Source: Allobranchiibius huperziae (GTDB lineage: Bacteria > Actinomycetota > Actinomycetes > Actinomycetales > Dermatophilaceae). From it: a stretch of 64,000 nucleotides of DNA. Position 1 is the stretch's first letter. Each line of letters starts with the position of its first letter. Both the position numbers and the translations under genes were made by a program. Of the stretch, positions 2 through 54,149 are shown one piece after another. Where the stretch lies: the NCBI RefSeq assembly GCF_013410455.1, contig NZ_JACCFW010000001.1, positions 2,868,929 to 2,932,928 on the forward strand, in the 5' to 3' direction. The notes below the pieces were generated by a model. It was not told the origin of the DNA. It ran no database searches and saw nothing but the letters and a program-made list of their open reading frames with translations.

Positions 2-400
2 GACTGCGTCGGACAGCTCGGGGCGCGGGGACTGCACGACCCCGCGGCCCTGCTGGCGGCCGTCTCCGAGCGACTCGTGACCGCCACGGATCAGGTATGG
101 CGCGAGCAGGAGGACGACCGGGTGGCCGCAGCCGTCGTCGCGATCCTCTGGCAATCGGGGGCGGCGGACGACACCTGGTTGGGGCCGGTCCGGGCACTGT
201 TCGACGCAGGCGAACCGGGCCCGGTCCCTGCACACGCCTCGAACACGATGCGCACCCTGCGCAGTCTCTACGTCGCGCTCGACCACCCGGTGGCGCCGAC
301 CGGCGATGTGCCGAGGCGCGTGGAGGGCGCGGATGACCTGCAGGTCCGGCTCGCCGCACTTCCGCACTCCGTCACCCCGACACTCTGGGTCGAGCGCTGA
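2..400 (+). CDS. Hypothetical protein, C-terminal part (cut by left window edge)
   Basis: The frame is open from the first complete codon to a TGA at 398-400, giving 132 visible residues, so the true start lies outside the window. A GTG at 77 could act as a start but nothing requires it. The visible part is soluble, rich in Ala, Val and Asp, with no membrane segment and no catalytic motif I recognise. It converges on tuf across a 200-base gap that holds two hairpins. I cannot assign a function; codon use resembles its neighbours, so it is probably a real gene end. Confidence 0.5.
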   Translation, partial: DCVGQLGARGLHDPAALLAAVSERLVTATDQVWREQEDDRVAAAVVAILWQSGAADDTWLGPVRALFDAGEPGPVPAHASNTMRTLRSLYVALDHPVAPTGDVPRRVEGADDLQVRLAALPHSVTPTLWVER

Positions 401-48403: not shown

Positions 48404-49567
48404 ATGCCGTCCGTGAAGCTGCGCCTGCCGAGCTCCCCACCGCCCGGATGGCCGAGCGAAGACCGCGGCCGGCTGCACCACGAGTCGGTCACGGCTCGAC
48501 TCGGCACTGCTGTCGGCATCGCGTTCGGCATCTGTTTCGTGACCGGCGTGATCAGCCACTACCAGTCCCACCCCTGGATGTGGCTCCCGCCGCCCGCGAC
48601 ACCGGCCGGCGGATACCGCTTCACCCAGGGACTGCACGTCATCACCGGCTTCGCCTCGATCCCGTTGCTGCTCGCCAAGCTCTGGTCGGTGCAGAACAAG
48701 CTGGCGCAGTGGCCGCCGGTCCGCTCGGTGCTGCACGCGCTCGAGCGTGCGTCCGTCGCCGTCCTGATCGCCGGGGCGCTGGTGCAGCTGACCACCGGGA
48801 TGCTCAACGTGTTGCAGTACTACCCGTTCAAGTGGCCGTTCGCGTCGGTGCACTACGCGCTCGGGTGGGTGGTCATCGGCGCGCTCCTGCTGCACATCGC
48901 CGTCAAACTCCCGATCATTCGCCGCGGGCTGTCCACGAAGCTGGACGGACCCATGGTCGACGAGCACGGCCTGACCCGTCGCGGCGCCGTGACGGGCGTG
49001 GGCATCGGGGCGGGCATCGTCGGGCTCACCACGGTCGGCCAGGTGGTCGGCCCGCTGGCGAAGGTGGCACTGCTGGCGCCCCGTCGACCCGACCGCGCGC
49101 CGCAACAGGATCTGCCCGTCAACCGCACCGCGGCTGCTGCCGGAGTGCGCAAGACCGCGGTATCCGCGGACTACCGGCTGACCGTGCGGGGCGGCACCGG
49201 CACCGGCACCCGGACGCTCACTCTGCAGCAGATCGAGGCGATGCCCGCGCAGACCCGCGATCTGTCCATCGCGTGCGTGGAGGGCTGGAGTCGGCGCGCG
49301 ACCTGGACCGGGCCGTCGCTGCTCGACATCGTCGCGATGGTCGGAGGCACCGCGGACAGCATCGTGACGGTGAGCTCCCTGGAGAAGCACGGGTTCAGCA
49401 GGTCGACCATCACGGCAGGACAGTTGAAGGAGGCCCTCCTCGCGACCCACCTGCACGGTGAACGGCTCACCCTCGACCACGGATACCCGCTGCGCCTCAT
49501 CGCCCCGGACCGAAAGGGCGAGCTGCAGACGAAGTGGGTCGACACGGTGGTGGTCTCGCATGCCTGA
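48404..49567 (+). CDS. Fused cytochrome-b561-like / molybdopterin oxidoreductase
   Basis: The 387-residue protein has four N-terminal transmembrane helices with histidines suited to haem ligation (H56, H78, H150, H164). A fifth helix preceded by twin arginines (TRRGAVTGVGIGAGIVG, residues 191-207) follows. Then comes a C-terminal molybdopterin-binding domain of the sulfite-oxidase/YedY class with the likely molybdenum ligand Cys291 in LSIACVEGWS. The fusion resembles YedYZ joined in one chain, facing outside. The electron source and substrate are unknown. Its end overlaps the next gene by eight bases. Confidence 0.82.
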   Translation: MPSVKLRLPSSPPPGWPSEDRGRLHHESVTARLGTAVGIAFGICFVTGVISHYQSHPWMWLPPPATPAGGYRFTQGLHVITGFASIPLLLAKLWSVQNKLAQWPPVRSVLHALERASVAVLIAGALVQLTTGMLNVLQYYPFKWPFASVHYALGWVVIGALLLHIAVKLPIIRRGLSTKLDGPMVDEHGLTRRGAVTGVGIGAGIVGLTTVGQVVGPLAKVALLAPRRPDRAPQQDLPVNRTAAAAGVRKTAVSADYRLTVRGGTGTGTRTLTLQQIEAMPAQTRDLSIACVEGWSRRATWTGPSLLDIVAMVGGTADSIVTVSSLEKHGFSRSTITAGQLKEALLATHLHGERLTLDHGYPLRLIAPDRKGELQTKWVDTVVVSHA

Positions 49568-49991
49568 GCGCATCGTCCGCGGCGCCCTCGGCGTGCTCGG
49601 GATGGCGGCCGCCGTCTGGGGGCTGCATCTGCTCTGGGTGGACCGGCCTTATATCAAGACCCTCAACTTCGGCGAATGGCTGATCAGCGGGATCCTGCTG
49701 CACGACCTGATCATCGCGAACGTCGTGCTCCTGGTCGGGTGGCTGCTCGCCAAGCTGCTGCCGCCGCATCTGCGCGGGTTCGTGCAGGGCGCGCTGCTCG
49801 TGATCGCCCTGGTCGGCTCGGTCGCGTTCTTCGTGGTCTGGCGTCAGGGCACTGCCAGCAGCCCGTCCCTGGCGCTGCTGCGGCAGAACTACGTGGCGAA
49901 CTTCGGGATCATCGCGGCCGTCGTGGTCGTCTGCACGGCGGTGCTGTACGTGCTGTCGCTGCGGACCATGAGGAAGTCCCGGCCGGAGTGA
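49560..49991 (+). CDS. Four-helix membrane protein
   Basis: The 143-residue product has four hydrophobic segments (VLGMAAAVWGLHLLWV, ISGILLHDLIIANVVLLVGWL, GALLVIALVGSVAFFVVW, IIAAVVVVCTAVLYVL) and no soluble domain. The ATG overlaps the end of the oxidoreductase gene, so it is coupled to it and could be a membrane partner. Its last 103 bases lie antisense to the end of a methyltransferase gene. Confidence 0.75.
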   Translation: MPERIVRGALGVLGMAAAVWGLHLLWVDRPYIKTLNFGEWLISGILLHDLIIANVVLLVGWLLAKLLPPHLRGFVQGALLVIALVGSVAFFVVWRQGTASSPSLALLRQNYVANFGIIAAVVVVCTAVLYVLSLRTMRKSRPE

Positions 49992-50587
49992 GTCCAGTGC
50001 TCCACGAGCGCGAGGCCCGCCTCCTCGGCGTAGCGCTGCAACACGTCCGCTGACGCGACGGCCCACGGGAAGGTCGGCGCGTCCTCGCCGTCCGTGCTGA
50101 AGCTCGCGGTGAGCACCTCGTCCGTGCCCGGCACGCTGGTCGCGGCCTCCAGGATCACCGTGCCGTCGGCGGCGGTCAGCTCGCGCATCCGGCGCAGCAG
50201 CGCCGGCACGTCGCCGCCGATGCCGCAGTTGCCGTCGAGCACCAGGACCGTGCGCCAGCGTCCTTCGCCGGGCAGCCGGGAGAAGATGTCCCGGGCCAGG
50301 GCCAGGGCACCGCGTTGCAGGGTGATCTCGACCGCGGCGTCCGCGATGTCGACGCCGAGGGCTGCCGTGCCGGCAGCGGTCAGTGCTCCGACGATGCGAC
50401 CCGGGCCGCATCCGACGTCCAGCACCGGGCCCACGCAGCGCTCCAACACCGTGGTGTCCGCGGCGTCGGCGTCGGCCAGATAGCGGGCCATGTCCAACTC
50501 GATCCGGTGACCGGACGTGGTGTGCAGACCGAGAGGGCCGCGGTCGCGCAGCGCCTGTTCGTACGCCGCCAGTGCGCCGATCCTCAT
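49889..50587 (-). CDS. SAM-dependent methyltransferase
   Basis: The 232-residue class I methyltransferase has motif I VLDVGCGPGRIVGALTAAG, an acidic post-I residue in ALGVDIADAAVEI, and LLRRMRELTAADGTVILEA as the central block. The substrate is unknown. It is coupled to the TIGR04282 gene (ATGA at 50584-50587) and converges on the membrane-protein gene with a 103-base coding overlap. The overlap could be shorter in reality if the C-terminal TTTTAAM-rich tail is dispensable. Confidence 0.85.
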   Translation of the reverse strand: MRIGALAAYEQALRDRGPLGLHTTSGHRIELDMARYLADADAADTTVLERCVGPVLDVGCGPGRIVGALTAAGTAALGVDIADAAVEITLQRGALALARDIFSRLPGEGRWRTVLVLDGNCGIGGDVPALLRRMRELTAADGTVILEAATSVPGTDEVLTASFSTDGEDAPTFPWAVASADVLQRYAEEAGLALVEHWTHSGRDFLMVRSDSTYSTAVQTTTTAAMIPKFAT

Positions 50588-51234
50588 ACGTCGGCCCCTG
50601 CGGCAGTCGCCGCCATCGCCGTCGTCCAAGCACCGGCGAACGCGCTCGCCGGCACGAGAGCGGCCACCTGCGCCGCATCCTCCGGGGTGTCCACATCGAG
50701 CAGCGGCGCCAACTCCTGCACGCGCAGACCTGCGTGCAGCATCCGGGCCAGCTGATCGGCCCCGGTGTGGTCGGTCGACATCGGAACTCCTTCGATCACC
50801 TCGGGTGCCATGGCGGGATCCGCGAAGCCGATGGCCCAGTAGCCGCCGTCGGTCGCCATCCCGAGGCACGCGTCGTAGGAGTTCGGATCGAATCCGCACA
50901 TGGATGGGGTGACCTGGGGGGTGTCCATCCCGACCAGCAGGCACGGCCCGGGCGGGAGGCCGCCGATGACCGTGGCCAGCCGGCGGTCCAGCCCACCCTC
51001 GGGCTGGGCCACGACCGACCAGCCGGCCGGCACCCATTCGCCTGCCTCGCCGTCGAGGGCCAGCACGTGACGGTGAGCCGGGACCATGCTCATCGCATCC
51101 AGGGTGTCGCGGATGGCTGCGGCCGCCACCGCGGCCGCCTGCTCCGGGCTGATGGCGACGGTGAGGCGGGTCTTGACCCGACCGGCCACCGGTTCCTTCG
51201 CGATGACCATCACGCTCGCGAGCGTGATGGTCAT
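50584..51234 (-). CDS. TIGR04282/DUF2064-family glycosyltransferase or nucleotidyltransferase
   Basis: A 216-residue Rossmann-like nucleotide-sugar-binding protein. It starts SVMVIAKEPVAGRVKTRL (the KxPxxGxVKTRL signature), then VGMDTPQVTP with the metal-binding DTP and GYWAIGF. Families of this type have been linked to arsenosugar-type or other small glycoside biosynthesis. It sits between a GT2 and a methyltransferase, overlapping both by four bases, so the three form one translationally coupled unit. Confidence 0.85.
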   Translation of the reverse strand: MTITLASVMVIAKEPVAGRVKTRLTVAISPEQAAAVAAAAIRDTLDAMSMVPAHRHVLALDGEAGEWVPAGWSVVAQPEGGLDRRLATVIGGLPPGPCLLVGMDTPQVTPSMCGFDPNSYDACLGMATDGGYWAIGFADPAMAPEVIEGVPMSTDHTGADQLARMLHAGLRVQELAPLLDVDTPEDAAQVAALVPASAFAGAWTTAMAATAAGADV

Positions 51235-51875
51235 CGGGCGAGCACCACGGTCATGTCCCGCATGGCCTGCACGGTGCCGCGCACGGTCCCGGTGACCTTG
51301 GATCGTCCGTGTCGGGGGTGATAGTCGACGTCGGTCTCCACGACCCGCCACCCGGCCTTCGCCGCCAGCACCATGGTCTCCAGCGGATATCCGCTGCGCC
51401 GGTCGATCTGGGCGAGATCGATCAGAGCCGTGCGACGCGCCACCCGCACGGCGCCCACGTCGTGCACGGGCAGACCGAGCGTGCGCAACCGCCAGGAGAG
51501 CACACCGTTCGCGAGACGCGCGTGGGCCGGCCACGCACCGCGGGCCACCGGTCGGCGCCGGCCGACGGCGAGGTCGGCACTGCCGTCCAGGACCGGCGCC
51601 GCGAGCGCAGGCACGATCGAGAGATCGAACGAACCGTCGCAGTCGACGAACGCGACAAGATCGGCGGTCGCCGCCATCAGCCCGGCGTGGCAGGCAGCGC
51701 CGTACCCGCGCTGGGTCGCTGTCACCACGTGCGCGCCGAGCGAACGCGCGATCTCGGGGCTGCCGTCGGTGCTGCCGTTGTCGACGACGAGCGCTCGGGT
51801 GCCGTCCGGGAGGTCGCCCAGGACGTGCGGGAGAGCGGCTGCCTCGTCCAGGCAGGGAAGGACAATATCGATCAT
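51231..51875 (-). CDS. Glycosyltransferase family 2
   Basis: The 214-residue GT-A enzyme begins MIDIVLPCLDEAAALPHVL, carries VVDNGSTDGSPEIARS and the acidic donor/metal site FVDCDGSFD, and ends without membrane helices. QRGYGAACHAGLMAAT is the typical GT2 helix of polyprenyl-phosphate sugar transferases. A GTG one codon before the ATG is an alternative start. It heads the GT2-TIGR04282-methyltransferase operon and is divergent from the sensor-kinase gene. Confidence 0.88.
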   Translation of the reverse strand: MIDIVLPCLDEAAALPHVLGDLPDGTRALVVDNGSTDGSPEIARSLGAHVVTATQRGYGAACHAGLMAATADLVAFVDCDGSFDLSIVPALAAPVLDGSADLAVGRRRPVARGAWPAHARLANGVLSWRLRTLGLPVHDVGAVRVARRTALIDLAQIDRRSGYPLETMVLAAKAGWRVVETDVDYHPRHGRSKVTGTVRGTVQAMRDMTVVLAR

Positions 51876-51974
51876 CACCCGACAGCCTGCCTCATCGGGG
51901 ACCCGTGCGCTGCATTCGCGCGGCCGGGGATGTGTCGACACCGTCCGCACCTCTGGAGCCTTAGGCTCGCCAAC

Positions 51975-53105
51975 GTGCCCCACCACTTCCTCCACATCCT
52001 CGCCATCGCACTGCTGTGGGGTGCAGGCGGATCGGCGGTGGCATGGGTGCTGACCTGGCCCGTCCGCCGTCGCGGCTGGACGGGCGGACACGTCTCGATC
52101 GCCGTGGTGGCGACCTTCGCGACCGTGGCGGCGATCGCCGGGAACGCCCGCGCGATGCTCATCAGCACCGACGACGGACACGCGACCATCGTCGCCGCCG
52201 TCATCGCCGGACTGTTGGCATCGGTGGCGGCGCTGCTGAGCGCACGCACCTTCCGGCGCGACAGCGCGTTCCTGCACACCGACATCGCCCACATCAACAG
52301 CGGTGGCGTCCCGACGCGGAACACCGAACCCATGTCACCGGAACTGCGCGGCCTACACCACGCGATGCGCGAGATGGGTGCCAACCTCGCCGACGCCCGA
52401 AAGCGGGAGTACGCACTGGAGGCCTCACGCCGCGAGCTGGTCGCCTGGATCTCCGATGATCTGCGCACCCCTCTCACCGGCCTGCGGGCGGCCGCCGAGG
52501 AGCTCGGGGACGACATCGGCGCCGATCACGCGCGACACCACGACCGCATCACCGCGGAGGTGCAGCAACTCACCGAGATGGTCGACGACCTCTACGAGCT
52601 CAGCCGGTTGCATGTGGGGATGGGCAAGCGCCGCAACGAGCGGGTGGACCTCTCGGCGCTGCTCTCGACGACCATGTCGAACCTCGAGCGGGTCGCGCAC
52701 GCGGAGAAGGTGCGCCTGACCGGCTCGGCGGCGGTCGCCGCCGAGGTGATGGGTGATCCGGGCCAGCTCAACCGCGCGCTGACCAACCTGGTCTACAACG
52801 CGATCCGTCACACCCCCGCGCGCGGCGCGGTCACCGTCGAGCTGCGCGCCGGGGAGAGACCCGGCCAGGCGCTGCTGCGGGTCACCGACCGGTGCGGCGG
52901 TTTCGCACCCGGCGACGTGCCCCGCCTGCGGGACATCGGCCTGCACGGCGACCCGCTCGACGACGCACCGTCGGGCGAGACCGCCGGGGGAGGTCTCGGG
53001 CTGACGGTGACCCGTGAAATCGTGGACGCGCACGACGGCGCCGTCGAGTTCGAGAACACCGACGACGGCTGCGCGTTCACGATCGTGCTCCCACTCGCGA
53101 GCTGA
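51975..53105 (+). CDS. Histidine-kinase-like sensor with H-box His replaced by Asp
   Basis: The 376-residue membrane protein has three hydrophobic segments near residues 4-92, then a dimerisation/phosphoacceptor-like region and a HATPase domain. The H-box reads ELVAWISDDLRTPLTGLRA, with Asp161 where the phospho-accepting His should be. The ATP site is intact: N box NLVYNAIRHTP, G1 DRCGGFAPGD, G2 GGGLGLTVTREI. No response regulator is adjacent. It may be a pseudokinase sensor or an adapter for another kinase. GTG at 51975 is the likely start; the epimerase starts nine bases after its stop. Confidence 0.85.
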   Translation: MPHHFLHILAIALLWGAGGSAVAWVLTWPVRRRGWTGGHVSIAVVATFATVAAIAGNARAMLISTDDGHATIVAAVIAGLLASVAALLSARTFRRDSAFLHTDIAHINSGGVPTRNTEPMSPELRGLHHAMREMGANLADARKREYALEASRRELVAWISDDLRTPLTGLRAAAEELGDDIGADHARHHDRITAEVQQLTEMVDDLYELSRLHVGMGKRRNERVDLSALLSTTMSNLERVAHAEKVRLTGSAAVAAEVMGDPGQLNRALTNLVYNAIRHTPARGAVTVELRAGERPGQALLRVTDRCGGFAPGDVPRLRDIGLHGDPLDDAPSGETAGGGLGLTVTREIVDAHDGAVEFENTDDGCAFTIVLPLAS

Positions 53106-53114
53106 GGCCACCTG

Positions 53115-54149
53115 TTGCGCATCCTTCTCACCGGCGGTGCCGGTTTCATCGGGCAGCACGTCCTGCGCGCCGCGCTCGCGGCCGGGCACGACGTGCTCGT
53201 GCTGGACAATCTGCGCGCCGACGTGCACCCGGTCCCGTCGTGGACCCCACCGGACGGTGCGCATTTCCTGCGCGGCGACGTCCGCGACGCGGACGCCTGC
53301 GACGAGGCGCTGCGCGAGGTGGACTCGGTGATCCACCTCGCCGCGAAGGTCGGGCTGGGCGTCGATATCTCCGACCTGCCGGACTACGCCTCCTCCAACG
53401 ACGTCGGCACCGCCACCCTGCTCGCGCGGATGGCGGCCGCAGGACGGCGCGAACTCGTGCTGGCCGCCTCGATGGTCGTCTACGGCGAAGGACGCGGCGA
53501 ATGCGAGGTGCACGGGCTGAGCAGGGGTCTCCCCCGCACTCCGGAGCACCTCGAGGCCGGTGACTTCGAGCCGCGGTGTGTCACCTGCGGGCGGGTCCTG
53601 GCCCCCGCACTGGTGGCCGAGGAGGTCGCCGCAGACCCGCGCAACGCGTACGCGGTGTCCAAACTCGCCCAGGAGCACTACGCCACGACATGGGCCCGCG
53701 AGACGTCGTCGTCCGCGACCGCGCTGCGCTTCCACAACGTCTACGGACCGGGCATGCCGAGCAACACGCCGTACGCCGGTGTCGCCTCGCTCTTCGCGGC
53801 CGCGTCACGGCGGGGCGAGGCGCCGCGCGTCTTCGAGGACGGCGGCCAGCGCCGCGACTTCGTGCACGTGCGCGACATCGCGAGCGCCGTGGTGGCCGCG
53901 GCCGAACAGCCGCGCGAGGGCTTTCGCGCGTACAACGTCGGATCGGGCACCCCGCGGACCGTCGGCGACCTGGCCACGGAACTCGCGACCGCTCTCGACG
54001 GGCCGGCGCCCGTCGTGACCGGCCAGTGGCGCCTCGGCGACGTCCGGCACATCACCGCCGACTCCGCCGCCATCCGCCGTGACCTGGGCTGGGCACCGCG
54101 CGAGGACTTCGCGGCGGGCGTCCGCGAGTTGGCGGTCAGCGGCTCGTGA
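53115..54149 (+). CDS. NAD-dependent nucleotide-sugar epimerase/dehydratase
   Basis: The 344-residue extended SDR protein has LLTGGAGFIGQHVLRAA, VIHLAAKVGLG, the YGEG region and the catalytic pair Tyr179/Lys183 (YAVSK). It has an unusual insert with a CxxC pair (C155, C158 in EPRCVTCGR). The C-terminal half contains RDFVHVRDIA and a sugar-binding tail. It probably interconverts an NDP-hexose. The start is TTG at 53115. It is coupled in arrangement to the upstream kinase-like gene and may feed the opposing glycosyltransferase operon. Confidence 0.85.
   Translation: MRILLTGGAGFIGQHVLRAALAAGHDVLVLDNLRADVHPVPSWTPPDGAHFLRGDVRDADACDEALREVDSVIHLAAKVGLGVDISDLPDYASSNDVGTATLLARMAAAGRRELVLAASMVVYGEGRGECEVHGLSRGLPRTPEHLEAGDFEPRCVTCGRVLAPALVAEEVAADPRNAYAVSKLAQEHYATTWARETSSSATALRFHNVYGPGMPSNTPYAGVASLFAAASRRGEAPRVFEDGGQRRDFVHVRDIASAVVAAAEQPREGFRAYNVGSGTPRTVGDLATELATALDGPAPVVTGQWRLGDVRHITADSAAIRRDLGWAPREDFAAGVRELAVSGS

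Follow-up and report, generated by a model that had tools for sequence, protein, structure and literature searches.

An apparently orphaned and catalytically dead histidine kinase in Allobranchiibius huperziae, at a locus that appears in three states within its genus

The stretch of Allobranchiibius huperziae DNA analysed here (64,000 nucleotides, henceforth the window) encodes a kinase that, judging from sequence, is very probably both orphaned and catalytically dead. An Asp occupies the place of its phospho-acceptor His, its ATP lid is altered, and the response regulator (RR) gene that adjoins it in relatives is absent; a congener has the intact system, another has kept a mere stub of the kinase gene, and substitutions are spread unevenly along the protein. 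Pseudo-histidine kinases are already known as a kind, though rare. We give an even chance to the complete reading, that the protein is the orphaned half of a two-component system, kept as a non-catalytic membrane pseudo-histidine kinase. Somewhat more tentatively, we propose that selection may have preserved this kinase, deprived of its partner gene and of catalysis, for a non-catalytic signalling role at the membrane, relaxation being confined to its phosphotransfer parts and congeners displaying three states of the locus. The relevant features are collected in Table 1.

Table 1. Features of the kinase locus (positions are those of the window unless another contig is named)
Feature	Position	Strand	Remarks
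Putative pseudo-histidine kinase, 376 aa	51975..53105	+	GTG start at 51975, stop ends 53105
Predicted TM helices of kinase, about three	residues ~5-27, 36-58, 67-93	+	
HisKA (DHp), residues 151-212	52425..52610	+	Pfam 50.2 bits, cut-off 26.9
Asp161 (GAT) replacing phospho-acceptor His	52455..52457	+	H-box WISDDLRTPLTG
HATPase_c of kinase, residues 260-375		+	Pfam 69 bits, above cut-off
N-box region NLVYNAIRHT of kinase	52785..52814	+	intact
G1 box DRCGG of kinase	52887..52901	+	intact, as the DxCGG variant of the subfamily
F-box and ATP lid, residues 319-336	52929..52982	+	diverged
G2 box GGGLGL of kinase	52986..53003	+	intact
Leaderless-type -10 motif, TAGGCT + 7 nt before GTG start	51962..51974	+	
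99-bp gap, glycosyltransferase start to kinase start	51876..51974	.	RR gene here in relatives
Family-2-type glycosyltransferase	51234..51875	-	conserved neighbour
NAD-dependent epimerase/dehydratase	53115..54149	+	conserved neighbour
Kinase 3' stub, congener G002	L107 7077-7257 (G002:C13)		ends just before epimerase start

Pfam finds the HisKA and HATPase_c architecture in the protein, and no PAS domain. Aligned to the solved kinases KdpD and VicK, codon 161 falls opposite the conserved His of SHDLRTPL or SHELRTPL, which, together with the alignment of relatives, bears out the first-pass annotation in placing Asp161 where the H-box His should stand. The phospho-acceptor codon is CAC in the four relatives whose codons were read. 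A single-protein scan of genome contigs gave only three distant relatives, and relatives were collected instead by searching the 188 whole genomes of the GTDB family (E<=1e-30), 63 of which, the window's own included, had a match. The H-box was read in 29 homologues besides that of the window. All 29 have His, as does the same-genus orthologue counted among them (congener G003, 65% identical), the comparison that the annotation had proposed as a check. A TAG reported inside one match (G144) does not, on inspection, interrupt the aligned kinase. An exact search for [S/T]DDLRTPL across 395 genomes of the class returned three matches, the window gene and two non-kinase frames. Since every homologue read has His and no other kinase with this motif was found in those genomes, Asp161 is, as far as sampled, a change local to A. 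huperziae. HisKA domains without the phospho-acceptor His made up 0.9% of 76,471 sampled (PMC12632262). The window kinase lacks the H-box His that characterizes a canonical two-component histidine kinase.

The ATP-binding part is damaged as well. It had been described as looking intact in its N, G1 and G2 boxes, which are indeed kept, but the F-box, unremarked at that time, reads RLRDIGLHG against RLFDVGFRG and counts as broken, while the lid has diverged. The changes of this region are F319R, V321I, R324H, R329D, P331A, H332P, P333S, L335E and G336T, of which only the first three are free of doubt about indels. With D161 and F319R, the protein is short of catalytic residues in the way that defines a pseudo-histidine kinase of HisKA type. 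The initial suspicion of a pseudokinase-type sensor is therefore supported, and the broken F-box and lid strengthen it, as does the loss of the RR.

In all 18 homologue neighbourhoods, an RR gene of OmpR/PhoB type lies directly upstream of the kinase gene, and in G003 (locus L043) its stop overlaps the kinase start. That no response regulator lies nearby in the window had been noticed from the outset; indeed, tblastn of the G003 RR against the 64 kb gave no match at E<=1. Nor has the gene moved elsewhere: across the window's genome (G000) no relocated orthologue was found, the best match being a 48% paralogue whose counterpart exists in G003 too. The cognate RR is likewise absent from G002, and when remnants were sought in the 99-bp gap and in G002, matches did not rise above chance level. 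The window kinase is therefore also devoid of the adjacent cognate RR that its orthologues possess, another mark of a canonical two-component kinase. Elsewhere in this genome there are eight more HisKA kinases, and an OmpR-type RR gene is found no further than about 1.7 kb from each.

How the RR gene went may be read in the short motif that precedes the kinase. The same -10 geometry is found before the RR start in relatives, as TAAGCT-N7-GTG in G003, TACGCT-N7-GTG in G087 and TACTCT-N6-GTG in G089, and TANNNT occurs 6-8 nt before 0.2% of the RTG triplets of the window. Because this geometry is shared, the simplest reading is that the stretch between the two start codons, of RR and kinase, was deleted, which brought the kinase under the old RR promoter.

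It appears that a single ancestral two-component system is present in the genus in three states: intact in G003, orphaned and presumably dead in the window, deleted in G002. In G003, the one congener from which an intact orthologue is known, the pair sits in the same synteny and differs from the window in having the His, an intact F-box and lid, and the RR gene. G002, whose DNA is about 87% identical across the region of synteny, has kept the neighbours (94% identity for the glycosyltransferase, 92% for the epimerase), and what is left there of the kinase is an in-frame 3' stub of about 120 bp, the last roughly 30-40 codons. The deletion junctions between the window and G002 are alignable over about 45 bp at most. 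Its deletion in G002 shows that the genus can do without the gene. Compared across three congeneric species, this syntenic locus suggests that the RR was lost first, then catalysis, then the gene. The origin of HisKA domains devoid of His is mostly unseen; here the intact pair, the orphan and the empty site stand side by side.

Substitutions were polarised against G087 and G089 over 325 sites, 17 of them in the lid. The window lineage has 34 of its own, G003 24. Nine of the 34 fall in the lid, against none of the 24, a count that drops to about five if two compensating in-frame indels hide in residues 327-336. The enrichment is marked (hypergeometric p 7e-6; scan permutation p 0.001), for a test made after the changes had been seen. 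Outside the lid there is no excess, 25 substitutions against 24. The DHp has 9 in the window and 3 in G003, the rest of the CA domain up to G1 has 6 against 11, and DHp plus lid differ from the remainder (Fisher p 0.002). With a neutral final segment placed on the window branch, a codon model tolerates a neutral time of at most about 0.035 substitutions per site for the whole protein and at most about 0.013 for the 266 codons that lie in neither DHp nor lid; for the lid it favours about 0.4 or more, and for the DHp about 0.07 (0.01-0.15). All these values are rough because synonymous sites to G003 are saturated. The distance from the window to G002 over five neighbour genes is about 1.0-1.14, that is, about 0.5 per branch. 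The phosphotransfer parts seem to have been released from constraint and the rest not, a pattern expected of a pseudokinase in use and not of a gene in free decay. As for a retained role, which belongs to the definition of such proteins, constraint persists outside DHp and lid, yet the sister species lost the gene. We place at about even the chances that the window protein still has a function.

The main competitor of this reading is that the kinase is simply dying: orphaned by loss of its RR and no longer selected, it would have accumulated few substitutions recently, and G002 would be the next stage. The deletion in that sister species speaks for it, and so does the fact that, of the few changes which this lineage alone has in conserved columns, two strike catalytic positions. 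Neutral decay, however, should scatter evenly, whereas the count outside the lid matches that of G003 and the frame is open; a neutral time of the whole protein above about 0.035 is disfavoured as well. We hold this decay to be a serious possibility, somewhat short of probable. The protein might also still dephosphorylate a non-cognate RR or serve it as a sink. A phosphatase-type D-L-R-T motif remains after position 161 (DDLRT), and there is published precedent, the His being not essential for the phosphatase activity of HisKA proteins (PMC12632262). Against this, the RR-docking DHp shows an excess of change, F-box and lid are altered, and eight OmpR-type RRs of the genome adjoin kinases of their own, so that we deem such activity unlikely.

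Two further explanations bear on the Asp codon itself. It could be an error of sequencing or assembly in a normal kinase, the explanation that His in all close homologues was expected to bring forward. His is what every homologue read has, but an error cannot account for the locus, whose losses go beyond this codon: the RR gene is missing from the entire genome, F-box and lid have changed, and the quality of the genome is high (100% complete, 4 contigs). This makes an error very improbable. Still harder to credit is an Asp at the H-box as a lineage trait of actinobacterial kinases, as the first-pass annotation had suggested from similar SDDLRTPL variants. The one thing in its favour is that suggestion; neither the 29 homologues nor the class-wide search provided another such kinase.

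The favoured account, of an orphan kept without catalysis, would run as follows. The kinase would be one half of a former two-component system. Deletion of the RR gene between glycosyltransferase and kinase would have left the kinase start behind what appears to be the old RR promoter. With the partner gone, constraint on phosphotransfer would have been lost, hence the replacement of His by Asp and the divergence of F-box and ATP lid. A protein with these changes would be able neither to autophosphorylate at the H-box nor to signal to its RR. Membrane part, linker and most of the CA domain look constrained still, and for this reason the protein would most likely persist as a non-catalytic pseudo-histidine kinase. 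It may then act by binding, for example by pairing with a second kinase in a heterodimer or by holding on to an RR that is not its own. Should the dead kinase indeed still be used, it would provide a naturally orphaned pseudokinase with an intact orthologue nearby for comparison.

Kinases that lack catalysis and work through binding have been described before. DivL of Caulobacter is a pseudo-histidine kinase of HisKA type in which Tyr550 replaces the phospho-acceptor His (PMC4211667), and its structure (4q20) matched the window kinase by sequence in a PDB search. The likeness lies in this replacement in a HisKA context. DivL, however, keeps all other boxes, has PAS domains and a partner, DivK, and its Tyr is conserved across alphaproteobacteria (PMC4211667), whereas the window kinase has Asp, a broken F-box and lid, a range of a single species and a deleted partner gene. 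Membership in the DivL family is ruled out, the residue being Asp and not Tyr and a PAS domain not being found by Pfam. RocA of group A Streptococcus is a kinase-like protein with several TM segments that acts through CovS and in which the DHp His is dispensable (PMC7028121). It is likened to the window kinase by description, being multi-TM and active without need of that His, but it still has the residue (H246) and a known partner. In Corynebacterium glutamicum, an evolved ChrS variant that lost its CA domain is a pseudokinase working with the paralogous kinase HrrS, and ChrS/HrrS heterodimers were shown for the native proteins (PMC9491836). This is again an actinobacterial kinase made inactive by damage to the CA domain; the difference is that it arose by a laboratory frameshift, with the His kept and the RR gene chrA still present. 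The window protein would thus resemble all three in doing without catalysis, and differ from them in the deletion of its own RR gene.

Some minor observations concern the surroundings and the subfamily. An OmpR-type RR without adjacent HisKA kinase is encoded at G000:C1:3058280-3058936, and similar genes exist in G001-G003. The kinase belongs to a cluster (48404-54149 in the window) conserved in many members of the family, in the order cytochrome b/molybdopterin oxidoreductase-like protein, methyltransferase, DUF2064, glycosyltransferase, RR, kinase and epimerase. Finally, in nearly all members of the kinase subfamily the G1 box is DxCGG, which replaces DxGxG.
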